Shown: one piece after another, positions 38,491 to 64,000 of the stretch
Layout of the letters: every line of letters starts with the position of its first letter
How positions within the stretch are numbered: position 1 is the stretch's first letter
Source of the DNA: Isoetes taiwanensis
Taxonomy: Eukaryota; Streptophyta; Lycopodiopsida; Isoetales; Isoetaceae
Direction: 5' to 3'
Assembly: GCA_021234155.1 (NCBI GenBank)
Contig: JAJEKV010000110.1
Coordinates: 250,187-314,186 of the forward strand
DNA length: 64,000 nucleotides
Notes under the pieces: generated by a model
What the model was told of the DNA's origin: nothing
Database searches by the model: none
What the model saw: the letters and a program-made list of their open reading frames with translations, nothing else
Made by a program: the position numbers and the translations under genes

Positions 38491-38589
38491 TAAGTTGGAA
38501 ATTTGTGTGGACGGAAACCTACTCAGCTCAGACTCCTTTTCATAAATCTAATATAATAGAAACCAAGCCCAGCAGTGCTGAGCTTTAAG

Positions 38590-39705
38590 ATGGTTTTCCT
38601 GTATTCGACATCCTTCCTCTTCCCTTTGTCTTTGCTCTATCCCGCATTTCCCTTTTTTCTCGTTTTTCTACACACTTTCCTTTTTCCTTTTCCATTTTTT
38701 CTCATTTTTCCCCTTCCTCTTCCTCTTTTTCAATTCCTTGATCCTCACCCTTCTCCTATTCCCCTTTCCCTCCTCCCTTTTCTCCTTTTTTGACCCTTTC
38801 CCTCTTTTCCTTTTCTCTGTCTTTTTCCTGATGGACTTTTTCTGTTCCATTTTCCTCCTTTCTCGATCCTTTCCCTCTTCCTCTTTTACCCTTGCCCTTT
38901 TTTCATTTCCTTCACCCTTGCTCCCTTCCTTTCCTTTCCTTTTCCCATGCCCTTCCCACATTCCTTTTTTTCCATGCCCGTTTTCCTCTTTTCTCTCAAT
39001 TTTTCCCTCTTCCCTTTTTCTTTTTTCCATGCCTTTTTTTTGCTTCCTTTTTTCCCTTTTCACCCTTTTCCCCTTCCTTTTTTCTTGTGCCCTTTTCCCC
39101 TTCCCTTTTCTCATTTCCCTCTTCCCTTTTTCTAATGCCCTTTTTTCCAGGTTCTAGTTCCTCCTTTGCCTCTTCCTTTTTCTTTCTCCTTTCACTTTCC
39201 CTTTTTCCATGCCCTTTTTCCCTTCCCATCTCTACATCCCTTTCCTTTTCCCCATTTTCCCTACCCTTTTTCTCATTTTCCCAACCTTTCACTCTTTTCT
39301 TTTTCTCAGTGCCCCTTTTCCCTTCCCTTTTCTTCTTTCCTCACCTTTTTCCCTTTTCTCGTCTTTTCCATGATCTTTTTCCCTTTCCCTTTCCCATGCT
39401 TTTTTTTTTCCTTCCTTTTCCCATTCTTCACTCTTTTTACCATCCTTTCTCTTTTTCCTATGCCACTTCCCCTTCCCTTTTCCCCTTTACCTCTTCCCCT
39501 TTTTTCATGCCCTTTTCTCAGGTTCCCTTCCACCTTACCTTTTGATTTTTCCCTTTCCCTTTTTCCATGCATTTTTCTCCTCTCTTATCCCCACCCTTTT
39601 CCCTCTCTTGTTTTCCCCTTTTCCCATGCCTTTTTACCCCTTCACATTCTCTCTTTCCTCCTCCCTTTTCCTTTTCCCCCCTTTCCTTTACCCTTTCCCC
39701 ATAAG
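38590..39705. repeat. Polypyrimidine tract, about 1.1 kb
   Basis: Almost pure C/T on the plus strand with recurring CCCTTTTCC and CATGCCC units. All long frames (Phe/Pro/Ser on plus, Lys/Glu/Arg on minus) are artefacts. Confidence 0.92.
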
Positions 39706-39716
39706 TCCAATCATAG

Positions 39717-39743
39717 TAGGAAGTTATGCGAGAAATCTCGGCC
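39717..39743 (+). repeat. 27-bp direct repeat at left flank of transposon A
   Basis: TAGGAAGTTATGCGAGAAAT plus TCTCGGCC, repeated at 47950-47976. With the 4-bp target duplication CCTA this implies insertion between two tandem 27-bp units. Confidence 0.8.
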
Positions 39744-39745
39744 TA
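39742..39745. other. Target site duplication (left), transposon A
   Basis: CCTA, repeated at 47948-47951. Confidence 0.75.
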
Positions 39746-39785
39746 AACAAGATTGCGTATTAAACGGGAGCAAATCATTGAAACG
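39746..39785 (+). repeat. Left terminal repeat of transposon A
   Basis: AACAAGATTGC, then ATTAAACGGGAGCAAAT; AAACGRGAGC appears twice as a direct repeat (to 39795), unlike the right end, which has a hairpin. Confidence 0.8.
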
Positions 39786-40120
39786 AGAGCAAAAGGAATA
39801 TTCCTCAAAGATTCCTTTTTTTTTTCAAAAAAGGGGGTAAAACGAGGTTAAAAAAAAAAAAGATGCATGAAATTCTATTTTGACCCCCCCCAAATGACTA
39901 ATTTTTTTTTGCAACGAAAGAATTGACTTTTTTAAAGTGTCACTTTTCTTAGCAAATAGAATGTTCTTAAAGTATGTTTTAAGAGAGAAACTCTAATTTC
40001 AGAGGATAAAATATTTAACAAAAAATTGAAGTAAGTATGTGACTGAAACTTTAGTATTCTCAAAATTTGAAGATAGAATCTTCATATTCACATGCAAAAT
40101 TTACAGTCTTTTTCTAAGAC

Positions 40121-43100
40121 TCAGTTATGTGCAAAAGTGTGAGGAGTGATGAGAGAGGGATCCAGGACGTCCTCATATTCATTTATGCCATCGTCATCAC
40201 CTTCACTTCTTTCACTGTCACTCGAGGAAGTGCTTGAGTTATCTTCCTCATCACTATCAACAGACGGTGAAGCATTGTCACCACCTTCTTCATCATCTTC
40301 TTCGTAATTACAAGCTTTTTTAAGCAAATTGATAGTCGTCTGGCGTAGACGATTGTCAGATTTCAATTTAAAATCATAGCACAATATAGTCACGTCATTA
40401 AGGTTCAGCTCGTCCCTACAACCCACCTTCTTGAACTTTCTCCCTTTTCCTTATCTACCTTCAAAAGCATTTTCTGAGCGTGTTGCAAGCCAATGAATCT
40501 TGAGTTTAGTGACTAAGCCTTCCTCCTTGACTGTGTCAAGCACTTTTGCTATCCAGAACGGTCGACCTTTGTCATCCTCCTCAGTCGGAAGAGCAATTAG
40601 CATACCTTTGGTAATTTCTGTGATATTACCTTGAGGCTCATTCCTGCGTCTTGGTCCGAGGTACATGACTCGGTCCTCCTCGTCTTCTACTGTAGGTGCA
40701 AATGTAGCACTGCTTGGACCTGCTTGGTGCTGGGGTTGATGGAAGGTGTTAGGCCATTGAAATGGTTCTTGCAACTGTCTTAGAGCTATATTTTGTACAA
40801 CAATTTTCTGTTCGAGAAAGAAATTACTCCACCACATCCGATCTTCTTCTAAGAAGTACTTAAAGCCTGAGGAAATTCCATTTTCAATGGCTTTTAAGGA
40901 TGACTCTGGGGTACTTTTCTTCTGCTTGGACTCCTTAGGATTTTTGAGAGGAAGTTGCTCAGCACGTTCTATGATGGAAGTGTCTGGAATATATTTAAGG
41001 AAGCGTAATCCCTCTGGTGGACTCCAGTCCTTAGTTGTGGTATACTTCTTCCCCTGTAAGAAGCTTTGGCCATCCTTCAAGTAGAACTTGATATGATGTT
41101 GAAAGGTGAGATCATTCAACTTGTTCACAGCTTGTTCTCTGTTTGAACGTTGAGAGAAAATAAACTCTCTGAAATCAGCAGTCTCTTTAAGAAGATCGAC
41201 CACTGGAGTAGGAGTGTAAGAATCTTCAATAATTCGAACTAAAGAAGGAAGACAGAAAGCCTTCTTCCTTCTAAGGCGCACAGAAAATCTGCTGAACATT
41301 TGGTCAATCTGATCATGAGTGTGGCCTACAAGTAAGAAACCGAGCTTCACTTTTCTAAAGATCCCTAGCTCCACTAACATGGCACAGTATGCAAAGAGTG
41401 TTTGATTCTTGTTCTCCCTTGTAGTATTGTCAAGTTGCAGATAAAGCACTGGTGGTAATTGCTCTTGCTCGCACAGGACCTTGTTAAGAACTGTAATTGT
41501 GAGGTTTGGGTCACCATGCAAGTTTGGATACGTCAAAAATACTTTGCACTTTAGACTTCCTTTGAAGACCATAGCTCCTACAAGGTGGACCTTAACAAAA
41601 CATTCCTCTGGCACATCTTTAGGAATGTTCAAGAAATGTGGTAGAGTTGTTTTTTTTTTTGGTCCATTCCATCAATCACAACAGACATGTATTGCAGTGG
41701 ACGTTCAAGAGCTTTTTTTCTATGCTTGGCAAGCTTTCTTCTCTCTGCTGCTTGTTGTTCACGATGTCTGGCAAGGTTCTGTTGCACAATATCTGTAGAA
41801 GAAATCAGGTTAAAGCATTTTCTCTGAAACAAGTGAGAGATTAGAGAACATGAGCTTACTTCTTTCGACCTCTGTCTTTGCAGTTTCTCGTTGACTCTTT
41901 AATTCTGCACACCTCGAGCAAACAGACATTCTATGTTTTCTAGGAATTTTCACAAGACCGAATTCACTTTTCCACAGTCTGGTGAAGTGTGAGTAAGAGA
42001 TGTGCTGAAGCTGAGTGCAAGTCTCTTTGTAGTCATTAAAAACATCTTTTTTGGTGATGTTATCAGTTAAATGATACATGTTGCTGTTAGGTAGCTTCTC
42101 ACATGTTTCTCTAAAATATTTCTCCATCCATGACACAGCAGCAAGGGCATGCATGGTTACAACTCTTCTTGGTCCGCAATGATCATTGATTGCTGGATTT
42201 TTGTCCAGTCTTTTGTGTATTCTAGACATTCTGGTGGACCCTAAACGGTGGACAACCATAAAGCATTTCTGGCAAACTTCTTGACGGTTAATGTAGTGCA
42301 AGAAGGTGTGCGGTCCGGTCTTACATTATAAGCTAAGTAAGCATTCTGGTCTGCCATTGTCATGGAGCTGTAGTTGTCTCTAACTGCTCGTAATTTAGCC
42401 ATGTTAAATCTGCTGATGCAACCCAATGAGCAGCATTTAGTTCTCAAAAGTCTCCTCATTTTGTGTTCATCCATAAGATTTCTTCTTCTTACAGAGGAGC
42501 AAGCCCTCAAACCAAAATCCACCTTGAATTTCTTTGAAGATTGGCTGGAGAACATGTAATCTCTTTGTTCCTCGTTGGTGTCTTCATCTTTCGATGAAAC
42601 TTCTACTCGGGGTGACTTCCTCCGTCTCCGAGTGGTGTGCTTGTAGAGGAAAAACAGACCCGCGTGAAGTTGTTCCCGAGGAATAGGCGGGGTCTGATGT
42701 TAAAGGGTGGTGATGGCCCATAAGAGGTTGTGGCATCAGCTGTTCTTGTACCATCTTGAAAAGGAGTTCTTGCAAACATCTCCTTCAGAGCGGACTGGAA
42801 TTCTGCAAATCCATGTGTCACAACCGTTGTTGTGTGAAGAGGAGTGCTTGCTCGAGCGTCGTCCTCATTTGTAGTGAAGTCCTGGTGGGAGAAATTGTAG
42901 TGAATCTCACAGTCTTCTTTACTTTCTGTGTTCCTTGTATGTTTGGATGAAGGGGGCGAAGCAATAAATGGGGGGGGTAGCTTGTTCTTGAACACCCGTT
43001 GTTGTGGAGCTTCTGTAGGTTGTCTCGGGGATGGAACAAAGGGTGGTGGCAACATGCTCCGAACTGGTGGTGATTCTTTGGAAGGAGATGCCAGTGTGCT

Positions 43101-43316
43101 ATCTACAGGACTTGGTGACGGTTGGAAGGGTGGTGGAAGTCTGTTACGTGCTGGACTCGGTGTGTCTTCGAGAAGCAACAACGATGAAGCAGAGGTTGGA
43201 GTCTGAGAATGCCGGTCTTTACTAGAAATGACGTTCTTCTCAAGCGTGTCCTCAGAACTAGACGAGCATGAGACAACAAATGGTGGTGGAAGCTTGTTCA
43301 CGAAGCGGTTCGTCAT
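40121..43316 (-). pseudogene. DUF7869-type putative DDE transposase of transposon A
   Basis: The ATG at 43316 follows an acceptor-like TTTTGCAG, so a 5' exon may exist. The N-terminal region has five LPPPF-type linear motifs, then a basic TRRRRK stretch. A middle region with NRQEVCQKCFMVVH and SVCSRCAEL follows. A 67-bp intron (41793-41859, GTAAGC...CTACAG) joins the core: VVIDGMDQKK, LYLQLDN...NKN and LLVGHTHDQIDQMFSRFS, the DUF7869 hallmark. Its Asp residues would suit an RNase-H-fold DDE enzyme (inference). The C-terminal tail is acidic (DDEEGGDNASPS). Defects: frame slips near 42,640 and 42,300, one at an 11-T run near 41,655, and a TAA before the tail at 40451. Family is clear; transposase role is inferred from position. 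Confidence 0.8.
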
Positions 43317-43329
43317 CTTAACAACTGCA

Positions 43330-43650
43330 AAATAGTAAAGAGATTTGAGAAACTTTCTGTGGTGCAGAGCTTTTCTTATTCCCGAATACACGCCCACGTA
43401 GTACAAGTAGAAGTTCCAGTACTAATCAAGTGAAAGTCAAGGTAAAAGCTATTCTGGAATACACAAGAGTAGGATAGTAAAGCTAAACGTATTCCGCAGC
43501 ACATAGAAAAAGAGCAAGACGAAAATGATACCTTTAAAAGGAAATTTCGGCGCCTTCAGTTGCGTATTCCAGTCTCTGAGCTCAAGTCGCCAGCGCCAGC
43601 GCCTTCGATTATAATATTCAGAGCTGTATTCCGATACTCATAGAGAAAAC
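43330..43650. promoter_or_regulatory. Divergent promoter region of transposon A
   Basis: It separates the two divergent starts. It holds full or half copies of the palindrome: ATTCCCGAATACACG (43376), TATTCTGGAATACAC (43450), GTATTCCG (43489), GTATTCCAG (43565) and GTATTCCGATAC (43626). No clear TATA box was chosen. Confidence 0.5.
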
Positions 43651-43715
43651 ATGGAGAGGTGAGTAAGAAAGTACAAGGTACAATCATTTATGTGTCTGTT
43701 TCTTATTCCGGAATA

Positions 43716-43787
43716 CACTTTCGCCTTCCCTCGAAGGCAAAAGTGTATTCCGGAATACACTTTCGCCTTCGAGGGAAGGCGAAAGTG
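43716..43787. repeat. 72-bp near-perfect palindrome in intron 1 of the methyltransferase gene
   Basis: 36-bp arms with one mismatch, centred on GTGTATTCCGGAATACAC at 43743-43760; the arms contain CTTTCGCCTTCCCTCGAAGG. Flanked by two more copies of the core at 43704 and 43804. Confidence 0.9.
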
Positions 43788-43831
43788 TAGAGCGAAGGCG
43801 AAAGTGTATTCCGGAATACACTTTCTTGTTT

Positions 43832-43948
43832 TTAGGTTTTTAGAGGTAACTTTTCCATGCGTTTTTTAGTTAATCTATACGTTTTTGCTGCATTTAAAGC
43901 TTGTTTAGACCACTTTTTTTTGTCAGGATTGTAGTGCTTTTTTGGCAT
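43832..43948 (-). CDS. Small basic peptide, hypothetical
   Basis: 38 codons starting MPKKHYNPDKKKWSKQALNA and ending in KKRMEKLPLKT. The pattern vaguely recalls a pipsqueak-type DNA-binding helix start, so it could be an upstream exon of the transposase or chance. It lies inside intron 1 of the opposite gene. Confidence 0.25.
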   Translation of the reverse strand: MPKKHYNPDKKKWSKQALNAAKTYRLTKKRMEKLPLKT

Positions 43949-45778
43949 TTTTGTCCTCTTTTTGCCCTCTTTTTTCACTTTTTGTAAGACATTTCGTATT
44001 CTGGAATAGTTATTTGCCACTGTTTTCTCTAACAAGGTCGTGTTTACACATAATTTGCACAGACAAGAAGGCAGCAAGAAACAACAGAAGAGGCCCCTTA
44101 AAATCTCACAGAAACTGCACCCACAGAGAAGGGTTGAGGAGTCAGCTGCGCCTGCTATCTACGAAAACTTCCAAACTCAATGGTTTTTTACAAGGGGTAC
44201 TTCTGGAAAGTACAGCACCCTGACTTTCCTACATGTCTGTCGGAGCCCTGGAACCAAAAGGTATGATGAAAGGGAATTTGTCTGCATGGGCACCATCCAG
44301 GCCGTCAGTGAGGTAGCTGGGGAGTCCGGTCAGGGAGGGAGACTATCTTTTCAGACTTCCCAAGGTTTTATTCATGTTGATGAATCCTACCTTAGAGTTG
44401 CGAAAGTAAATCCACATCCTCTTTATAAGTATGTTGCTCACTACCTGAACAAGAGGTCGCTCTCTGCCATCATTAACTACGTTCGAAGCACAACGAGCGA
44501 GGACTTCCCCTACAGCGAGTCAGAACAAGAGGCCGAGGATAACCCAGAGAGCCCGAGCAGTGCATCATCACCATCTGGGAGTCCATCAGAGTCCGAAGAA
44601 AGGCCACCGTCACCACCACCAAAGCGGCAAAGGATAACCGTTGCCGCTAAAGAGCCTAAAAAAAAGCAAACGGCTTTGATTGCACCAGAAGATGCTCCTG
44701 AGGCACATAAGAAGAAGAAGGGGAAAGGCAAAGCACCTGGTGTTGCCATCAAAGAAAAAAAAGTTGATAAAACATCTGAGAAAATGGAGGAGATTAACCT
44801 GCACAAGTTTGTGCAAGGTGTCATTTATTTGCCAGTCACTTGTATGAAGCTTCCACCGAAAAATGAAGCTGGTGAAAGGCCACTTCAGGTTCGCAAAATT
44901 TACGCCGATCACTTGAGGAACCTGAAAGACAGAATAAGGAGCAATCCAAATGCTCATGTGGCCCCAATAGTTGTCCTTGTTGACAGGGAGCAGTGCAAAA
45001 CCCCCCAGGACTATGACAGAGAAAACGCAGACACCTACACTCACTACGTCTTGGGAGGCAATCACAGCTTTAAGGCAAGAAGGCAACTTTTTAAAGAGAA
45101 GAAGAACCCGAGGTACCTCTCCGTCCTCTGCGCTGTCTACTGTGGTCTTACCGATGAAGAAGCGAAAATCGTTGCCAACACCCACAATGCTGACAACGAA
45201 TATAAACTAAAGATGAGCTTCGTCGACAAGATCCGGTTCATGCACAGGGAGTACGTAATTTTCAAGGAAAAGTACGGTGAGGACTTGAAGAAGCCAGCGT
45301 TTTCCTTGGAGCTTAAGGAGGCGTGTGCCATTGAATGCTGCCTGAAATATGACGAGGCCAATAAAAGGCAGTCTCTCATTGGCCACGATAACTGGTTCCA
45401 ATTAGCTTTTAGAGATGGCAAGGTAAGAACAAAACTTATTCCAGAATAACAAATCAACTATCTCCGCGGAAATATTTTTGAGCAGATTTGGGAACTCGGG
45501 ATCGAGATTTTTTCAATGTTGAACGAGGGGAGTTAAAGAGCAAGGGCAAGGAGACAGCCAAGAAAAAAATCATCGACGTGCCCAAAAAAGAAATGACCAT
45601 TACCGTCTGGCGAGAAATGCAGGGCTTCTCCGACACAGAGATTCTGGAGCGGCTTCTCCAAAAAGTTGTTGATAAGGAGTTTAGCCTAGAAGAAATGTCA
45701 AAGGAATTGCACAAGTAAGATCTCTGCCACAAACTTTACTCTTTAGACGTTAGAGTCCCAAAAACATCGGGGTAGATA

Positions 45779-46059
45779 GTGTATTCCAGAATACACATAC
45801 CTTTCTTCACATGGGCACTGTGTATTCCGGAATACACAATGCTTTTCTAGAGACAAGCAATGTGTATTCCGGAATACACATTGCCCTTGTAAAGAAAGCC
45901 ATGTGTATTCTGGAATACACATGTCCTCTTCTAAAAAAGTATTGTGTATTCCAGAATACACATTGCTTTTTTCAGAGAAGCAATGTGTATTCCGGAATAC
46001 ACAATGCATTTTGTTTCGAGGTAACATCACCAGTTAACCAGTTTGTATTCCAGAATACA
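45779..46059. repeat. Array of seven palindromes in intron 3 of the methyltransferase gene
   Basis: Copies start at 45779, 45830, 45872, 45903, 45944, 45985 and about 46044. Each is GTGTATTCCGGAATACAC or has CCAG/CTGG at the centre, so symmetry is kept or changed at the middle only. Some extend by CAATG/CATTG to 28 bp. Spacing is 31-59 bp. Single copies lie in other introns at 45436, 46800 and 46840. Confidence 0.95.
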
Positions 46060-47595
46060 TTTAGCTTGACTTTTATTTGTTTTTCTTCTTCTTTGCCTTG
46101 TTTCTTACTTTTTAACTCATTGTTTCCTTAACGTCTTGCAGCCAAAAGAACGTCATAACATGTCAAACATGTTTGATGGAGCAGCTAAACGTAGAGACAT
46201 GGGAAAGGTGCAAGGAACTCTACCCTGTAGCCACTTCTGACGAGCGAATTGTGCAATACGCACCAAATTTTGAGGGCTGGGTAAGTACTCTCAACATTCC
46301 TCGCCTTTGCACACACGATCTCCTTACAGTTGTTGTCATGTTTTTCCTCAGAGCAAAAAGAAAAACAAAGACCTTCCCGAGGGCTTCATGCATTTGGTTA
46401 GAACAGCACAAGAATAGAGGTCGTTAGCTGAAAGAAGAACTGTTGAGTTAGAACCATCCGACTACGAGAGATTCTGCATGTTTGATCAAAACAATTTATA
46501 TTCAATCATTCATGGTGATTGCACGAACCTAGTCGGAACGGTTAAGCCACAAGACTTCACTTTGGTTATTGCTGATCTTCCCTACGGGTTTAAGCTTAAA
46601 GACAGCAGATATGACGACCAGCCCTTCAAATTTTCAGAGTTTAATGCTTTTATTGATGGAATCAAGCAGGATCAGCGGCTAAACATTGGCGTTTAGTTAC
46701 TTTCCATTCGAGCATGCTGTCTGGCTTGGTAGAATCAGCTTTCAAAAACCACTTTGGTTCTCCAGTTCAGGCAGGATATGAAAACCTTGTATGGTAAGTC
46801 TTATTCCAGAATACAGTTACTTTTCTCTTTGATTACGTAGTGTATTCAGGAATAGTATTTCCTTACGGTTTTGAAGTGTGTTCTTGTTTTTGCTAAGTAA
46901 ACATCACTTTAAATGTTTTACTAGGTACAAAAGCGAACATCAACTACCATGGTGGAGGACCAAGGTTGCTTAGCAAGGTAGAGTACCTTCATGTAGCTTA
47001 TTGGAGTTTTGATGGGAAGAGGACCATGGAACACTTCAACACTGCCGCCTGTCAAAACTTTTCAAACGTCCTTGAGTTTCCAGCGATTATTTACGAAATT
47101 GCGGGCCCAACTGCACAAGGCAGGATTGTGAATCACTACCAGAAACCACAAAAGCTCATCAACCATCTCCTGGACATGTTCTCGCGTCCAGGAGACTGGG
47201 TGCTTGATGCTTTCTCTGGTTCTGGTACTACTATCGCATGTGCACTTAAGAAGGGCCGCGAAGCGTAGCCGTGGATATTGATAAGGATCTTTGTTAATTT
47301 TGTGAAGATGAGACTGGCTGCCTTACCTACTTTACCAGATGAACATCAAGAGCTAGGGGCCAAGTCTTCATCTGATTATGCTAAACTAACGTCCTCAGAG
47401 ATACAGCCTCCATTCTCCAGCTCACTAGACGATGAGGCAACCTTTGCAGAGCTTAAAGAAGTAGCTTTAGCTACCATTCCAGAGGACAAGGAGGATACAA
47501 AACTCAAGTCTCCAGCAAAGGAGCAGATAGAACAGAAGGACGAGATGGCAGAGAGCAACAAAAAGAATGAGGAGGACTATGATGTAGATCTTTGA

Positions 47596-47903
47596 CTACT
47601 GCATATTAAAATTATCATTATTTATTACAATGAATCTTCAATATTGATGTACAACAATTTATTAAAAACATAGTACTTTTTTTTCCTTTCTATTCTGGTG
47701 CTTGTTTTTTGTAATGCTTTCAGTCTCTTCAAGTCTAAGCCTAAATTTCGCTATTTTTATGATTTCTGTTTCATAAGTACAAAGTTTTCGTCTAATGATG
47801 GGCCAAAATGGCATGAAAAAAAATGCGAACCTCTAGAAATTCTCAACAACTATCAAAAAAGGCTTATTTTAGAAACTTGGTGTTTTTTTAAAGGGAATCT
47901 TTG
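47596..47903. other. Right subterminal region of transposon A
   Basis: Non-coding AT-rich DNA. From about 47,780 it is clearly similar to 52,420-52,550 in transposon B. Confidence 0.7.
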
Positions 47904-47931
47904 AAACGGGAGTGATGCAACACTCCCGTTT
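47904..47931. repeat. Right-end hairpin of transposon A
   Basis: AAACGGGAGTG and CACTCCCGTTT, an 11-bp perfect stem with loop ATGCAA, 16 bp from the element end. The same hairpin, loop CTGCAA, is at 52554-52581. Confidence 0.9.
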
Positions 47932-47947
47932 AATTTGCAATCGTGTT

Positions 47948-47951
47948 CCTA
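47948..47951. other. Target site duplication (right), transposon A
   Basis: CCTA, matching 39742-39745. Confidence 0.75.
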
Positions 47952-48052
47952 GGAAGTTATGCGAGAAATCTCGGCCTTTGGATGCACCTAGATGATCTCG
48001 GCCATTCAAATTAAGGCTTGATCCAATCCAAGACTTACGGTATAAACATTAT

Positions 48053-48861: not shown

Positions 48862-49230
48862 AACAAGATTGCGTATTAAACGGGAGCAAATCATTGAAAC
48901 GGGAGCAAAAGGAATATTCCTTAAAGATTCCTTTTTTTTTTCAAAAAAGGGGCTAAAATGAGGTAAAAAAATTTATTTTGGTCATAAAATTGCATTTTGA
49001 CCCCCCCCCAAAATCACTCATTTTTTTGTGCAAAGAGAAAATTGACTATGTCAAAGTGACACTTTTTCTAACAGTTAGAATTTACCTGAAGTGTGTTTTT
49101 AAAGAAAACCACTAATTTAAGTGTATGTCCTACACAACATTTTTTAAACTTGGATTATATTCCAGAAAATGTACTTTTAGGTTACAATGTGTCATTTTTT
49201 AATGATGTAATATTTCAAAGTACCAAAATT

Positions 49231-49545
49231 GTAATCCGGAATACACTAATGCTATTCGAGAATAACAGAAGTGTATTCCGGAATACACTTTTGCTTTTCT
49301 TGAAAGTCAAAGTGTATTCCAGAATACACTTTTGGTTTTGCTCGAAATCCAAAGTGTATTCCGGAATACACTTTTGTTGTACGAGTTTTTGAGACTGAAC
49401 AGCGATCTTGGGGTTTTTCGGGGTTTCGACATTTTCAATGATCTTGCAACTTTTTTGTTTTTCTAGCATATTCAATTTATTTGTATGACCTTTCAATTGT
49501 TTTTATTGTTTTGTGTGGATACACGTTCGTATTCCAGAATACACT
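49231..49545. repeat. Palindrome block 1 of transposon B
   Basis: GTGTATTCCGGAATACAC-type copies at 49271, 49312 (CCAG centre), 49354 and about 49528, with a degenerate one at 49231; more at about 49694-49725. Confidence 0.92.
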
Positions 49546-49739
49546 TTTGTATTCCGTGGGCAACTAAATTTGGCTCTGGGCATCGAAATTTGACTTGTAT
49601 CTTGGCGTTCAGGAACTCGAACATTTTTAAAAGTGTAAAAGAAGAAAATAAAATAGAGGGATACCGGATAACGGCTCCGGGAGAAGAGGGAAATATATTC
49701 TGGAATACACTTTGTATTCCAGAATAGGATTTGGTTTAC

Positions 49740-51870
49740 ACAAAAGAGGCGATGATCCTGCTGGGTGATCTATTTCAGCTCCAGATTGGGGTTTTGAAAG
49801 CCTGCCTGCTGATGGCGGCTCTGGTATGTTGCACTGGTAGCTTGGAGTAGGTTCAATGTCTTGGATTTAGGGCATGTTTGCTAGCTATCTTTGGCCGGGT
49901 GTGGTCGTGGTCGTGGTACGCGGGTCGTGGTCGTATTCGTGGCTATCCGGGCCGCTTGAGCAACACAAGATTGCTGATGGCACAAGATGGCTGTGGCCGT
50001 TGGGATGATGGTTGTGGCCGTTGGAACGATTTTTGCTCATCACTACAATTTCCATTAACTTATTCCGACAAAGGAATACATAGAAGAATGACCTGTGCTT
50101 ATCTTTGTTATAATTTCCAATAAAATAGTTCCTGTACGTTCCATCAGCTGTTTACAAAAGGAATCCTGACTCGGTGGGAAGCTCGGCTGTAACTTACCAC
50201 AAACATAGCTGCAAGTTAAATATACAGCGCATAATCACAACAGCTAACTGCAGCAGGCTTTGAGGAATGTTTTGAGTATCATCAGCGCCTTGGGTTATTC
50301 GAATCTGGCATTTGGTTAGACCGGAAGGCTACCACTGCTACCACGCCAAACAGATGAGGACCCACACTTTAATGCCGTGATTCACACACTACAGACAGAT
50401 TCAACGTCGGTCCATTCAATAGCCGGATAAGGAGGGTAAAATTGTTTGTTTAAAGCCAAGACTAATGATTAATTTGAGTTCTAACTTTGTAGTACAGCTA
50501 AAGCATCATTTTGTTCATCAAACATGTGTGAAACATTAAAATACCTCACTGCTGATTTTGACAAGGAGGGATGGAAGCTAAAGCCCAAGTAAAAATGAAT
50601 GTGGCAGCATCCTACACAGTCCATACAATGCCTCAATGTCGATTTTGACACAAGGGATGGAAGCTAAGCAGGAGCTTTATGTACAATACTTGAAAATTAT
50701 GTGTTGCAAAGAATGCTTGAATATGAAGCAGCTAGCAGAGGAGAAACTGCCAATGGCGAACCCTTTTTTACTGCTCTAGTCCGTTCCTTTTCGAGAATAA
50801 AGGCCTAATATTAGCAACATTGGAAAATTTTCAGTTCAAAAGATGGCATTGTTTATTTCATAAAAAGCCGTTTTTTTTACTGCTTTTTAAAGAGAAGAAG
50901 CAAATGGAATGTGCAAAACACAACAAATGTGCTTGTTTTATTCTACAATTTCCTTGATTTGCATTTGCTGGTTCAACATGCAGGTTTTATTAATTTCTGA
51001 GGTTACTGCATATTTCTCTCCTTGTTATTTGGTCCATGGCATGTGAGGCTACTGCGGCAGAGTCGTGGATATCATAAACTTGAGTTTTTATGCTGCTCTG
51101 GTCTCCATTCAGAGCATCATTATCACAAGCATCATTGTTTTTATGTGGTATCATTACAGGCATCATTGTTTTCATTGTTTTTGAAATTTTTCTTTAATAC
51201 ATGCTTCATTGTTTTCATGTGGCTATTTTGGGGCATTAGCATGAGACTAAGAAACAATTTGCTATGGACAATTCTGCTATGGAGCCACAATCAGGCCAGT
51301 GCTCTGAAGAAGATGAATATCTTGCGAGAAATGTTTATGTGACGCCTTTAAAATAAAGTTTTGGTGCCGAATGATGCGAACCCATTAAGTTGTGTCTTCG
51401 TAAGGTGCTTTGGCCAGACTTAAAGATTAAAAAGTAACAATTCCGTGGCAAATGAGTTTGCAAAACTTAAAACTCATGTACAACCCTGGAACGAATGCAA
51501 CTTTGACAAAATATCAGTATGTTTTGATTTTCTTTTTCTTCTTTCCTTCTTTTTACAGTTTACATCTTAATACAGGGTACACATCTCCCACATGTCTTTA
51601 ATGAATGTTGCACATACCATGTTTTCTTCATAATATATATCACCATTGGCATATAGTCCTACATCCATGTCCTTTTTTGCACAAAGAGAAGGAAATAACA
51701 TCAACGATGACTTAGACTTTTGAATATCTCAGGTCCACATTAAGTCATCATCCATTCTTCAATCCATTCTTCAGTTCACAATAAGTCTCCATCCATTCTT
51801 CAAAGATTTTAGAAATGCGGGATGACAATTTTAATGTGTGTGGAAGCAGATGATTGAAAATATGGCTTTT
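49740..51870. other. Internal filler of transposon B, no gene recognised
   Basis: Contains GTGGTCGTGGTACGCGGGTC-like short repeats and chance frames. Its source is unknown. Confidence 0.5.
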
Positions 51871-51900
51871 GATTTGTATTCTAGAATAGGGTAAGAAATG

Positions 51901-52290
51901 TCCATGGAATTGCACAAGTAAGCTAGCTCTAAACCTTAACACATACGAAACAAGTTATTTTGGAATACACGTTTGATTTCTTAGAAAGCATAAATGTATT
52001 CCAGAATACACATTCGCTTTCTCAGAAAAACAAAAGTGTATTCCGGAATACATTTTTGCTTTCTCTGAAAATCCAAAGTGTATTCTGGAATACACGTTTG
52101 TTTTTTAGAAAAGCAAAAGTGTATTCCAGAATACACTTTTCTTTTTACATTTTTTGTTTTATGTGTCCTAGTGTTCATTTATTTACTTGATTATTTTTTT
52201 GTTTTTTAAATGTGGAAACTTAGGACAGATACCCAGTCGCAACATCTGACAAGCGTGTTGTTCAATACGCACCAAATTTAGAGGGTGCCA
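51901..52290 (+). pseudogene. Remnant of the methyltransferase gene in transposon B
   Basis: GGAATTGCACAAGTAAG at 51905 matches the exon 3 end and donor of the A gene. 52215-52290 (ACCCAGTCGCAACATCTGAC, then CAATACGCACCAAATTTAGAGGG) matches exon 4. Between them lie palindromes at 51966, 51993, 52036, 52078 and 52121, in the position of the A intron 3 array. Coding is destroyed. Confidence 0.82.
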
Positions 52291-52553
52291 AATTGATCTA
52301 CTGAAAAAATTTAAAGAAATAATTATTATTTTTTCTTCTCTATTTTGATGTTTTTGATATCTCACTTTCAGAGATTATGTATTCATGTACACATTTTGCC
52401 ATTTTCAAGAGTGTTTCTTTGCACAAAGCAAACTTGTCACTTAATGAGGAGCCAAAATGAGGGAAAAAAAAAAACTGAACCTTTTGAAATTCTCAAGTTT
52501 ATCCAAAAAAGGCCAATTTTAAGAGCATGTTGTTTTTTTAAAGGGAATCTTTG

Positions 52554-52581
52554 AAACGGGAGTGCTGCAACACTCCCGTTT
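52554..52581. repeat. Right-end hairpin of transposon B
   Basis: AAACGGGAGTG-CTGCAA-CACTCCCGTTT, same place and stem as in transposon A. Confidence 0.9.
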
Positions 52582-52597
52582 AATTTGCAACCTTGTT

Positions 52598-59522: not shown

Positions 59523-60880
59523 ATAAGATACTATGAGGAAAATATATTGATGCACCCTTCCTAGTTTCTCATAGCCCACTGGTGCCAAAACTTACCGCCC
59601 ACATTATTAGCTTTTAAAATTGACTAGAGCAAGCCTTGCTGACATGGCGGCCACATGTTCTTTGAGGATGAGTAATCGAAGTTTTTGAAATCACTACAAA
59701 ATTATGAACAAAATTGTAAAATATACGACACATTTTGACATTGCCTCATCGTTGGATAGGCATATTCACCCCTTATTCCTTAATCTATACCGTACGTAAA
59801 GTTCCTCGTTTGTGGGGTATGCAAGTACAAAATTTGCTATACTGTATAACAAGATTCGCAAAATACTATAAGATTTCAAGCGAAATACTATATGGTGTTG
59901 ATTTCGTACGTGCAAAATACAATTATGAGGGCTCTCGCTGCCCTACGTCACCCCCCGTGTGAATACGCACCCAAACCAAAGGGGGTTTAAGGGGGATTTT
60001 AATTTAAATGTGTTGGACCTAATGGTTGTGTTAATTAATGTCAATGGTAGTTATAATGTCAATGGTTGTTATGTGTTGGTTGTTATGTGTTGGGGGATTT
60101 AATTTTTATATGTTGGATGTTAATGGTTTGTGTTACAAAAAATTTTTTTTGGCCCCCTCGGGCTTTAGGGATGTCACCCTCCCTCCCCCCCCCTGATGTG
60201 ACAAAAATTTTAGAATTCAAACCAGAAAAAAACTAGAATTCATTTGAGGCTTTCATCACCTGTAGCTTTTGAATTTGATCACAATAAAACAAATAGAACA
60301 TAAGTAAAAGTTACCATAAAGATAGAGCAGATTGATCCCATTATTCTGAAAGTCATAAAGTTTGCAACACAAAAAAAAACCCTCTGTTATTATGCTACAT
60401 ATTGTTACTTCCGCTACAACTATTTCTCTTTCACAATGACACCATTGTTTATCAATCCATATGATTTTGGATGCTCCATCTCTAGCTTAAAGGTAATGCA
60501 TGATTCACCTTATGGTTCGATTAAAGTTCCAAACCTACAATATAAATGCATTCTTGTGGCCATTGTTTGACTGATCTGCGTGACATGGAAAAGGGCGTGG
60601 AATAATCCGCCTGTTGTGTGCATAAGAATCCGTTTGTTGATTGAAGCTAAAGGCTGGCTGCTATGAACAATCCGGTAGCCAGGAATATCCAAGAGTTGGA
60701 AGCAAACAGAGGGCCTAAACTTGAATTTGCAGCAAATCTTAGGAAGGAAACAAAAAAGCATGATTTCATTAATTGGATAAATTAACGCAATTTTGAGAAT
60801 TTTGAGCACACCTTATTTGCTCAAGCACGAATACTTTCACCTAGTACTCGACCCCAACAAACATGAGGTAATTAACAAAC
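59523..60880. other. No gene recognised
   Basis: AT-rich, with GTTATGTGTTGG-type short repeats at about 60,050-60,120. Confidence 0.5.
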
Positions 60881-60984
60881 ACATATACATACAAATTTTG
60901 TGTTATACTTGTACGTGTACATGACACTCGTATAAGCTCAATAATGGCCCTACATCGTACGCCAATAATTCACTTCAATAATTT

Positions 60985-61010
60985 TACTTCACTATAAAAA
61001 CGGCTTCACG
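60985..61010 (+). promoter_or_regulatory. TATA-box promoter of the 80-codon gene
   Basis: CACTATAAAA lies about 40 bp before the ATG. The upstream block CAATAATTC...CAATAATT is shared with the promoter of the neighbouring copy (61,580-61,620). Confidence 0.65.
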
Positions 61011-61035
61011 AGGGGGTAGAGGCCATTCATCTTCC

Positions 61036-61278
61036 ATGGCTTCCTCGATGCCTCGTCCAGAGCACATCCGCTCTTTCAAGTGTTACTTGAGCTACAACGA
61101 TCTGGGCGAATGCGCTAGAAATAGCGTTAAGCTTGATCCATGGCTCTTATCTAAAGCTGATGGACCTGCTAGTGCTTGCAGGAAGCTCACTCGCGTTAAA
61201 GTCCATATTTTTCGGCTTCCCCGATCGGAGATCTATGAGCTGAATGGCATCACGAGCTTTGATGTTGATGACGAGTGA
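61036..61278 (+). CDS. Small hypothetical protein, 80 aa
   Basis: An ATG at 61036, 40 bp after a TATA box, opens 80 codons ending at TGA (61276-61278). The protein has HIRSFKCYLSYNDLGECARN, a positively charged centre (ACRKLTRVKVHIF) and an acidic end (GITSFDVDDE). I recognise no family. A diverged tandem copy with a shared promoter lies 0.6 kb downstream, and conservation of the frame end between the copies argues that it is or was a real gene. It lies between the low-complexity region and a DUF7869 pseudogene, and may belong to the same element. Confidence 0.55.
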   Translation: MASSMPRPEHIRSFKCYLSYNDLGECARNSVKLDPWLLSKADGPASACRKLTRVKVHIFRLPRSEIYELNGITSFDVDDE

Positions 61279-61610
61279 ATGCAAGACCGCTAATAATGTA
61301 ATAATGACATGGGTACCTAATAACTAAGTAAGGATGTAATAGCATTTCGATTAAGGATGTAATATCACGTACCTTAACTGAGTATATTGTAACGATGTGC
61401 TATTCCACCTCCACTTATTCTGCAAGCTGTCATTGAATTCAATCATAGCTAAATTCGTCAAGCAAACATGTTTTGAAACATACGCATATTAGTACGCATA
61501 CATATATCCATACCTAAAGATGTATTATACTTGTATTTATACAACGGTCTTATACACAAGCAATAATGGGCGAAGTCTACCCCAATAATTCACCTCAATA
61601 ATTCTACCTC

Positions 61611-61895
61611 ACTATAAAAGCTTCTCACTTGGGCTAAAGTTCATTCCTCTCACATGGATTATTTGCCTTCATCAATTCACCACATCGAGGCGATCAAGTG
61701 CTCAATGAGCCACTCGATCTTGTTGGTTGCCTAGGCGGGCATCTTCTTCTTGATCCCTACCGCGAAGAAAAGCTTTGGGGCTGAGATTCGTTGCCTGCGT
61801 CAATTCGTGTAATGATCCATCGATTTGGATTCCCCGAGCGAATGAGCTATGAGATATCGGGGATCACTACTACAGAGATCGAAGGTGAATGAATC
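61611..61895 (+). pseudogene. Decayed tandem copy of the 80-codon gene
   Basis: CACTATAAAAGC (61611) matches the promoter of the first copy. The ATG at 61654 gives MDYLPSSIHHIEAIKCSMS, then a TAG. Other frames continue the homology to the end, where FPERMSYEISGITTTEIEGE matches LPRSEIYELNGITSFDVDDE of the first copy. At least one stop and frame slips make it a pseudogene. Confidence 0.6.
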
Positions 61896-62030
61896 ACATT
61901 GTTTAGCATTGTATAGTGTAAGAGCTCTTGTGTTGAGATGGAAACGCAGAGCGTAACAAATAATAACTAGTCTATTGTAACTTTCATGTTATGAATGATA
62001 TAGTAATTATGTAAAAGAGCATTGCATACC

Positions 62031-64000
62031 TCAAGAGTTCTCATCATCGTCCTTAGCTTCTTTAGCCACTAATTCTTGCAACTGAGCCCGAACACTATTG
62101 GGGATCACCACTGACAATGGCCTGGTCTCTACGGCCCAACCATAGTCTATTGTTTTCAAAGGTTGGTAGCGTATGGTCATTAGGATTGGGTCTCCAATTC
62201 TTGCTCCAACAATCCCTATCTTTGCATTGCATATGAGGTTCCCTTTTTCGCAACAGTTCAAACCAAGAGACAAACACCTCTTCATAATGTGGGAGATTAG
62301 GGTCCTCATCGGGTCCTGTTTCGCAAAAAGCCATCCATGTCGGGCAGTTATCATGTGGTCTGATTAGCAAGAGCATTCCCTTCTTGACATCTTGGTAGGG
62401 GTCGAATATTTCAACTGGGTTCTTGGGTCTACCCGAGAAAGGCCCTACGTAATGAGATGCTTCAATGTGCTCATCCACAAACACTCTTTTCGGGTTCTTC
62501 CAATGCACTTTGCCACAGTCTTTGGGCGAAATCTGAATGATGACTCTACCGGGCTGCACGTCACCAAGCACTCGCAGCAAAGGTGGACCCAAGAGTCAAT
62601 AACTTCATTCATATATGTGTTGGACCATGACTTATCGCCAGCTCTAGAAATAGCCTGCCCAATTGCATCATGTACTTGGCAATAGAAGCTCTTAATGCAC
62701 CTATATCTTTCAAGCTCCCATATGGCTGCAGGACCTTAGGTGACCCTCTCGGAATCATAGGTAAACCTTGGGCATCCTCCTTCCACATTCTGATTCCCTT
62801 TTCAGGGAGCCACTCCCTATGCCCCGCCTCATCTTGTAGAACATTAGTGGCCATCCATCCTTCATGCAAAACTTGAAGAGTAGAGGTTCCAAGTGACCAC
62901 ATAAACAGTCCTTCTTATCGGGGATAAATCCTTTCACCGAATTCCTTCCAATCGGGGAACCTGTCACAAGGTAAGGTGAAGGAGCCTTTGAACTACACTG
63001 CCTGAAGAGTTGCATAAGCTCCGGAATAGTCAATGCATCTGATCTTCTCATTAGAGTAGAGTAGTTTCCAAATGGGGCATCTATGTCATCGTGGGTGTGT
63101 CCAACCATCATGAATCAGCTGCACTTGATCAAATACACCTAACCAAACCAAGTATGACAAGTAAGAGAAAAGATATCTATTCTTATTCTGACCTGAGCAA
63201 TTATCTAGCTGCAAGTAAAGCCTCCTAGGCAACTTGTTTGCTACCATGGGGCCTTTGATAGGAGGCATAAAATCATTTCTACTGCCATTCATCATTTTTG
63301 TCCTAAGGTTATCTGTGTTTAAAATTGCTTTGCACCCGGTTTTGCTTTCGGAGACATCGGTATCTCTCAAATGGCCCCAATTATCCTCAGATTTATTCTC
63401 CAGTGTCTTCAAGGTATGATTCAAGGATCCCACATGAAAATTAGAATCATCAGGCCAGAGGTCCAGTGAGAAGTGGCCCAAGGCACCTATACCATGGCCG
63501 TGCATGAGAGCACTGTGTAACTGCGACCTTGGCCGTTCACCCCTCCATACGAGACTTTGCTAGCTTCTCTAGACGAGGGACCATGGTCTTATTCTGATCC
63601 ATCTTATCATGTATAATGGTTAAAGCGTGCTCAGGAGATCTATGCGACAAAGCTCTCCAGGACCAGTAAAGGCTCCTGCATGAAATCTGGGCCGTCATAT
63701 GTGATTTTCTCTCTATTGCAAGTACCCTTCTTTCGTTTGGGATCTGGTCTTAGCAAGCTTTTCCTTTATGACAATACGGGTGTTACACTTGGAAAATGCT
63801 ATCCTCTTATCTATTGCTACCTCTGAATGATTCTCTTTCCAAGCGCAGCCGAAATGACGAAGGAGAAATATGCTTGCTTTTGTCATCTACGTGAACGGAA
63901 ATATCTACTTCTTGGTGTATATCCTTCTTAGTCAAGACTGAAGGTAGCCTCTTAACATTTTTGTCTGTTACCCCCTCGCCGTAATTTTCGAGCGGTGTGG
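62031..64000 (-). pseudogene. Second DUF7869-type putative transposase (runs off right edge)
   Basis: Reading leftward from about 63,650, the minus strand encodes IIHDKMDQNKT, LYLQLDNCSGQNKNRYLFSY, then MMVGHTHDDIDAPFGNYS and RRSDALTIPEL. These are the same blocks in the same order as the gene at 40121-43316. The C-terminal part covers 62031-62592 (PHDNCPTWMAF ... ending KEAKDDDENS). Frame slips at about 63,110, 62,830 and 62,350, and stops upstream of 63,505, break it. It is diverged from the transposon A copy, so it belongs to a different element lineage. No terminal repeats are visible in the window. Confidence 0.75.

Follow-up and report, generated by a model that had tools for sequence, protein, structure and literature searches.

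A DNA transposon family of Isoetes taiwanensis that pairs a DUF7869 transposase gene with a ParB-like DNA methyltransferase gene and carries arrays of a candidate cis-acting palindrome

The 64,000-bp stretch of DNA analysed here (the window; positions 250,187 to 314,186 of contig JAJEKV010000110.1 of the lycophyte Isoetes taiwanensis) contains a DNA transposon of 8202 bp. Two intron-bearing genes lie divergently between its ends, a DUF7869 gene for the predicted transposase on the minus strand and a ParB-like/N6_N4 methyltransferase gene on the plus strand, with start codons approximately 335 bp apart. Relatives, designated L followed by a number, were sought throughout the I. taiwanensis assembly (1,658,258,908 bases in 1110 contigs). 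The parts of the window copy are as follows.

39742..39745, no strand: left copy of the target duplication, CCTA, 4 bp, exact
39746..47947, no strand: whole transposon, 8202 bp, with terminal inverted repeats and flanking CCTA; relatives L039-L042 are full-length
39746..39770, plus strand: left terminal inverted repeat, 25 nt, 88% complementary to the right end
40121..43316, minus strand: transposase gene of several exons, ATG at about 43316, with an intron seen by eye near 41796-41862; frame broken in this copy
40451..41671, minus strand: exon with the DUF7869 domain (PF25273, expectation value (E) 2.3e-52) and the motifs LQLDNTTRENKN and GHTHDQID
43651..43658, plus strand: methyltransferase exon 1 (ATGGAGAG); another copy has the corresponding ATGGACAG before GTAAG
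44063..45422, plus strand: exon 2, with an unnamed N-terminal domain, a K/R-rich linker and a ParB-like core, from genomic matches, the ratio of non-synonymous to synonymous substitution rates (dN/dS) and three profile libraries
45486..45714, plus strand: exon 3, from splice sites; present in 29 of the 30 loci L009-L038, the exception being L023
46142..46280, plus strand: exon 4, with splice sites in most copies
46352..46793, plus strand: exon 5, with the motif IV-like DLPYG; broken in the window copy
46935..47595, plus strand: exon 6, with the motif I-like DAFSGSGTT and PF01555; broken in the window copy
47923..47947, minus strand: right terminal inverted repeat, pairing with the left end
47948..47951, no strand: right copy of the target duplication, CCTA, 4 bp, exact

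The matched ends, the 4-bp target duplication and the two divergent genes had been proposed in a preliminary description of this DNA and are all borne out, the genes by profile matches on opposite strands. Exact 4-bp duplications flank all six copies in which both ends are visible and their sequences differ between copies (CCTA in the window copy, TAAT in L040, ATTG in L042, TGTT in L041, TCAA in L039 and TTCT in a second element of the window); L043 and L044, which complete the set of seven copies (the window copy and L039-L044) used for comparing elements, stand outside this count, one end being cut off or replaced in each. A genome-wide search with the left 255 bp of the element returned 1459 initial candidates, 40 of which were scored; all 40 matched, a few of them without the first bases. 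We read the family as cut-and-paste DNA transposons that have multiplied in a lycophyte.

The DUF7869 assignment of the transposase gene was confirmed by hidden Markov model search, PF25273 being matched at 177.9 bits against a cut-off of 26. A DDE/RNase H-like transposase has an RNase H-like fold with an acidic triad; of these features, acidic motifs were observed in several copies. Comparison of the exon by sequence with solved structures found no relative, its single-sequence structure model was unusable (predicted local distance difference test (pLDDT) 36.2), and a literature search of an open-access paper collection found no mention of DUF7869. The Sola superfamily makes 4-bp target duplications, like those of the six copies above; with the opposite-strand pairing of the genes, these fit the possibility that DUF7869 may be a Sola-type transposase.

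The predicted N6_N4 methyltransferase was likewise confirmed, with matches to PF01555 in two profile searches (E 5.4e-13 and, above its cut-off, 3.1e-13) and to phrog_67 (E 2.6e-14). Motif IV precedes motif I, the beta-class order that had been proposed; in most copies motif IV reads DLPY, a single residue away from the canonical D/N/S-P-P-Y, and PF01555 nonetheless scores above its cut-off. Sequence comparison with solved structures brought up mainly adenine enzymes as the closest, namely CcrM (E 9.7e-6) and, more weakly, RsrI, MboIIA and DpnA. CcrM aligns with the Isoetes enzyme over the IIHGDC..DPPY and FxGxGTT segments and RsrI over the motif I segment only, whereas the Isoetes enzyme differs from both in its DLPY motif IV, its fusion to ParB-like and unnamed N-terminal domains, and its eukaryotic introns. 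These relatives and the DLPY motif favour N6-adenine as the probable target base, with N4-cytosine as the alternative. The ParB-like matches of exon 2 are weak and mutually consistent (TIGR03764, E 0.0012; phrog_1033, E 0.0041; DUF6551, E 1.9e-4). A search for close phage relatives gave as its best-ranked match 24.6% identity over 88% of a 248-aa piece and none for exon 2, while viral contigs gave a single weak match to exon 6 and none to exon 2. The sole match of exon 2 among solved structures, a spore protease (E 0.13), was taken as chance. As for the intron structure noted earlier, the GT..AG boundaries are shared by most of the copies extending that far, with divergent intron bodies; L040 and L041 deviate at some boundaries.

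Other copies with the same ends also carry the methyltransferase gene, against the possibility, raised in the preliminary description, that they never do. Collecting 30 loci (L009-L038, the window's own included) by methyltransferase exon 2 alone, we found the transposase N-terminal exon upstream and divergent in 29, the exception being L029. Among at least 103 scored matches to the transposase and at least 90 to methyltransferase exon 2 (66-100% identical), 18 pairs lay less than 20 kb apart, all 18 divergent, and 16 of them had 2.07-2.80 kb between the two genes; both sets comprise the best scores only, and the remaining matches had no partner within them. When the 12 top-ranked unpaired transposase copies were inspected, 11 adjoined methyltransferase exon 2 (40-93% identity per aligned piece), in L061 and L067 as short pieces only; L062 had none.

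The linkage is accompanied by exchange. Identity to the window copy is mostly above 89% over the whole length of L039 and L043; in L040, L041 and L042 it is 86-99% across the transposase half, drops to 53-87% from the shared promoter (approximately 43350-43650) onwards, and is back at 91-97% in the final 67-69 bp. Across 28 copies, distances in the transposase N-terminal segment follow those in exon 2 overall (Spearman 0.78 between the two matrices; 0 of 999 permutations that high), with clear exceptions. Compared with L012 and L033, L017 differs by 5.6-6.8% in the transposase segment and by 20-23% in exon 2, and L031, by eye, has an exon 2 whose N-terminal half is like that of L035, L036 and L038 and whose remainder is like the window's. 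The idea that the two halves always travel together is thus qualified by the exchanges in L017 and L031 and by the break at the promoter in L040, L041 and L042; modules of the element have been exchanged, with the palindrome-bearing promoter region as one breakpoint. As a separate observation, the N-terminal part of exon 2 is approximately 57-63% identical to the window's in L057, L058 and L064, whose ParB-like core is 84-93% identical; the N-terminal domain may be fast-changing or exchanged, and frame breaks may depress these identity figures. In L044, other DNA replaces the methyltransferase from exon 4 onward, and beyond approximately 6512 of that locus its translation resembles, on inspection by eye, the integrase of a plant Ty3-type element, probably a nested retrotransposon.

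The methyltransferase is under strong purifying selection. For exon 2, 435 pairs among 30 copies were compared, and the median dN/dS was 0.37 in the eight pairs with synonymous divergence (dS) below 0.1, declining across the dS bins from 0.37 through 0.28, 0.26 and 0.15 to 0.09, the last being the median of 124 pairs with dS 1 to 3; 119 of the 435 pairs, mainly saturated, fall outside the bins. Catalytic exon 6 gave dN/dS 0.01-0.03 in eight diverged pairs (dS 1.18-1.50), the other seven of the 15 pairs among six in-frame copies (L046, L049, L052, L054, L023 and L043) being three close pairs at 0.10-0.26 and four saturated ones; values of dS above 1 are imprecise, and the gap is still large. 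Ten exon 6 stretches had been fetched for this comparison, seven of which contained an exon 6 match (none in L048, L051 and L053), and the four in frame were used; the window's own exon 6, out of register in the comparison, was excluded. Most diverged copies retain both motif IV and motif I, although one or the other is missing from some individual copies (motif I from L042). Because dN/dS is low and the motifs are retained, the spreading lineages of the element seem to have required a working enzyme while individual copies decayed. The adoption of a prokaryote-type DNA methyltransferase by a plant transposon, suggested earlier, is thereby supported as a stable one, and its long settlement in a eukaryote is supported by the introns and by synonymous sites near saturation between subfamilies.

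The window copy itself is damaged or mis-assembled in both genes: the methyltransferase has a stop codon in frame and its reading frame is broken in several places, and the frame of the transposase is broken at least once, at a T-run. Intact single exons exist in other copies; no copy was demonstrated to be intact end to end. Across the transposase half (39800-43650) of the seven compared copies, 36% of 91 short insertion-deletion (indel) clusters outside homopolymers touch CAG/CTG, against 9% expected, a 3.95-fold enrichment (z 8.6) that is the highest among trinucleotide pairs. According to the accessible part of its description (PMC8566536), the assembly rests on nanopore v9.4.1 reads that were polished with Illumina data. 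Because the indels cluster at CAG/CTG in a nanopore-based assembly, they may be mis-calls at CHG-methylated cytosine (H being A, C or T), so that part of the frame breaks may be false and the host may methylate these copies; a literature search for nanopore errors at CHG sites as a published fact found none.

In addition to its genes, the family carries a palindrome in arrays, apparently a new feature, which in the window is distributed as follows, together with the second element.

43377..44008, no strand: six sites of the palindrome TATTCNNGAATA, two in the shared promoter and four in methyltransferase intron 1
45437..46057, no strand: eight sites in introns 2 and 3, mostly at 41-42 bp spacing
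46802..46854, no strand: two sites in intron 5
48862..52597, plus strand: second, gene-less element of the same family, with ends 83% and 78% identical, a TTCT duplication and 12 palindromes

The 28 sites of TATTCNNGAATA in the window, against 0.06 expected, comprise 16 in the first element and 12 in the second. All 16 in the first element lie in the shared promoter or in methyltransferase introns, and none was found in the transposase half (39746-43320). In the 30 loci collected by exon 2, the 3 kb flanking that exon contain 7-17 palindromes per locus and exon 2 itself contains none in any of the 30; the flanks together hold 391 exact, 26 one-mismatch and 57 two-mismatch sites, compared with one exact site for 15 shuffled-letter decoy palindromes combined. 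Among neighbours less than 130 bp apart, 149 of 232 are spaced 41-42 bp, approximately four helical turns, a spacing that may stem from tandem duplication. Of 175 distinct contexts, 146 have CG, CA or TG at the centre of the palindrome, as expected of the pattern left by CpG deamination. An 18-mer, GTGTATTCCGGAATACAC, occurs 2585 times exactly in the genome and its reversed control not at all. All 12 sampled sites of this 18-mer, picked from the first hundred listed, belong to the window element's family, six with gene sequence and six gene-less within the 3 kb read, two of the latter retaining a remnant of exon 4.

The second element starts less than 1 kb downstream of the first and contains an exon 4 remnant and approximately 2 kb of unrelated filler, which two palindrome arrays flank near both ends of the element. 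To sample such gene-less copies we took 40 places matched by its left end alone (48862-49110), which avoids selecting copies by their palindromes, and read 1.1 kb of each of 13 spread down the list. Within the 1.1 kb, the DUF7869 exon was found in none of the 13 and palindromes in all 13, with a pair spaced by 19 bp at 668-967 bp in 11. Most of the intervening DNA has been replaced: measured against the second element, sequence outside the palindromes is only 36% identical at 701-800 bp and 63% identical at 801-900 bp, where palindromes are 91% identical. In other intervals the palindromes have little or no advantage over their surroundings (99% versus 96% identical at 401-500 bp and 100% versus 81% at 501-600 bp). 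These copies share ancestry and are not 13 independent events. The retention of palindromes in the sampled gene-less copies fits a cis-acting role.

Taken together, we favour a self-directed circuit, with a probability of roughly 0.55, in which a protein of the element would read the palindrome TATTCCGGAATA and methylation of element DNA would tune both expression from the shared promoter and transposition. The DUF7869 protein would act as the transposase, and the ParB-like/beta-class methyltransferase, most likely nuclear and N6-adenine-specific, would serve the element itself. The palindrome TATTCCGGAATA, arrayed at approximately four helical turns, would be a site acting in cis that a protein of the element reads, the methyltransferase being the likeliest reader, or else the transposase under control of the methyltransferase, and methylation of the element's own DNA would set the expression of the shared promoter and the assembly of the transposase on DNA. 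Such a circuit is the simplest account to join the selection on the enzyme, the family-specific palindrome in the promoter and the survival of that palindrome in gene-less copies. Its logic resembles Dam control of IS10 and the action of TnpA at the 12-bp subterminal repeats of En/Spm; by analogy with TnpA, a second element protein might work through 12-bp repeats, with methylation of these repeats making a difference. Tentatively, and at appreciably lower odds, the circuit may be closed, the ParB-methyltransferase itself recognising TATTCCGGAATA and methylating there, with the mark setting promoter activity and transposase competence in cis in gene-bearing and gene-less copies alike. If so, bacterial transposition under Dam control would have a eukaryotic counterpart, with a transposon-borne methylase, in a land plant, a group in which N6-methyladenine (6mA) is disputed.

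Several observations weigh against the self-directed circuit. The palindrome is unchanged where the N-terminal domain of the methyltransferase differs by approximately 40%; its reader would therefore be a conserved part, be it the ParB-like core, the catalytic domain, the transposase or a host factor, and nothing ties the palindrome to the methyltransferase over the transposase or a host factor. The ParB-like matches all lie below the curated cut-off where such exists, the structure model of exon 2 is not confident (pLDDT 39.8), and choosing in-frame copies of exon 6 biases towards low dN. In the gene-less sample, palindromes are less conserved than their surroundings at 301-400 bp (87% versus 91%) and at 601-700 bp (41% versus 57%), and these copies may keep their palindromes through descent from one deletion derivative. 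Furthermore, unlike the subterminal repeats of En/Spm, the palindromes of gene-bearing copies are internal, more than 3.6 kb from the left end, and only in gene-less copies do they lie near the ends.

Among the alternatives, an unlikely one is that the methyltransferase marks element DNA against host silencing while the palindromes are host transcription-factor or enhancer sites driving the shared promoter. Selection has kept the enzyme, host silencing is the chief threat to the element, and 6mA is tied to permissive chromatin in some eukaryotes, according to the accessible part of PMC12695648; the CAG/CTG indels suggest that the host places CHG methylation on the copies regardless. The palindrome core TTCNNGAA resembles a pair of heat-shock half-sites, of which no third was seen by eye, and its CG/CA/TG centre would be expected if the host methylates the central CpG; nevertheless, a host factor's site should occur elsewhere too, whereas all 12 sampled sites are in the family, and gene-less copies retain the palindromes without genes to drive. 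Somewhat less probable still is a replication-linked or target-choice benefit of the kind found in bacterial mobile elements, such as hemimethylation timing or immunity to self-insertion, with palindromes bound by the transposase alone. Orphan beta-class enzymes such as CcrM have a part in replication timing in bacteria, and some copies have exchanged the methyltransferase half, in contrast to the conserved transposase half and palindrome motif; against it, palindromes are absent from the transposase half of the window copy and from the neighbourhood of its ends, and the second element, which may be older or younger, lies less than 1 kb away, which does not suggest immunity to self-insertion.

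We consider it improbable that the arrays act as RNA, as intron hairpins that control splicing or feed small RNAs. Intron 3 does have 70-nt arms that are 90% complementary and 2 nt apart, but tandem palindromes yield complementary arms automatically, and the motif, spaced at nearly whole helical turns, is present ahead of the two start codons and in copies that have no genes as well. Contamination of the assembly, or a chance adjacency of unrelated genes, has a negligible probability and was dropped, contradicted as it is by copies on many contigs of up to 53 Mb with eukaryotic introns, by exact 4-bp duplications of differing sequence, and by the constant divergent geometry of the genes.

The gene pair noted in the preliminary description is not supported as a novelty. 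In the accessible part of PMC12477816, the Ectocarpus DNA transposon Sola1-1_Ec32 is described with a ParB-methyltransferase gene opposite its transposase, green and red algal cases are cited, and the authors propose that a transposon of this kind is bound and modified by the protein it encodes. The Isoetes element likewise has its methyltransferase, with an N6_N4 domain, on the opposite strand within the same ends; Sola1-1_Ec32 differs in its length (21.5 kb versus 8.2 kb), its 1104-aa product and its brown algal host, and section 5 of that paper describes no palindrome array. The green and red algal cases share the protein architecture, by the same paper's second-hand report, in algal hosts. 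Base-modifying enzymes are carried by other mobile elements as well: the accessible texts describe dinoflagellate and charophyte retrotransposons with a DNA methyltransferase, which is a C5-cytosine enzyme and not an N6/N4 one in a DNA transposon (PMC5890265), and DNA transposons of fungi with TET/JBP genes, whose product is a dioxygenase that has methylcytosine as its substrate (PMC12730594). In the open-access literature searched, which excluded the algal primary papers, no land-plant ParB-methyltransferase transposon was found, and no published target site for a ParB-methyltransferase transposon was found in that literature either. The Isoetes family has at least 90 scored methyltransferase matches in one plant genome and shows strong purifying selection on the enzyme; it also offers a concrete candidate for the target, a palindrome so far seen, among the sampled sites, in this family only. 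If the link between palindrome and enzyme is true, a direct test becomes possible of the old question why mobile elements of eukaryotes take up DNA methyltransferases. Separately, N6_N4_Mtase domains are encoded by 66 genes in the red alga Asparagopsis, compared with 4-6 in three further red algae, according to the accessible part of PMC12115072; these are possibly the same kind of transposon gene.

Elsewhere in the window, at 62854-63238 on the minus strand and extended with L093, another DUF7869 protein (30-54% identical) is represented by a fragment that has the motifs LQLDN and VGHTHDDID. Neither a methyltransferase nor a palindrome was found beside this degraded fragment in 60000-64000 or in the 5.3 kb beyond, and perhaps some DUF7869 elements are without methyltransferase and palindromes. 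Immediately to the left of the transposon lies a long, C+T-rich tract of low complexity resembling CCTTTTCCC (approximately 38580-39700). Two identical 28-bp stretches, 39717-39744 and 47950-47977, flank the transposon externally; their reading as a long target duplication was ruled out by the 4 bp of five other elements, and a tandem 27-bp duplication was apparently already present at the site when the element inserted.

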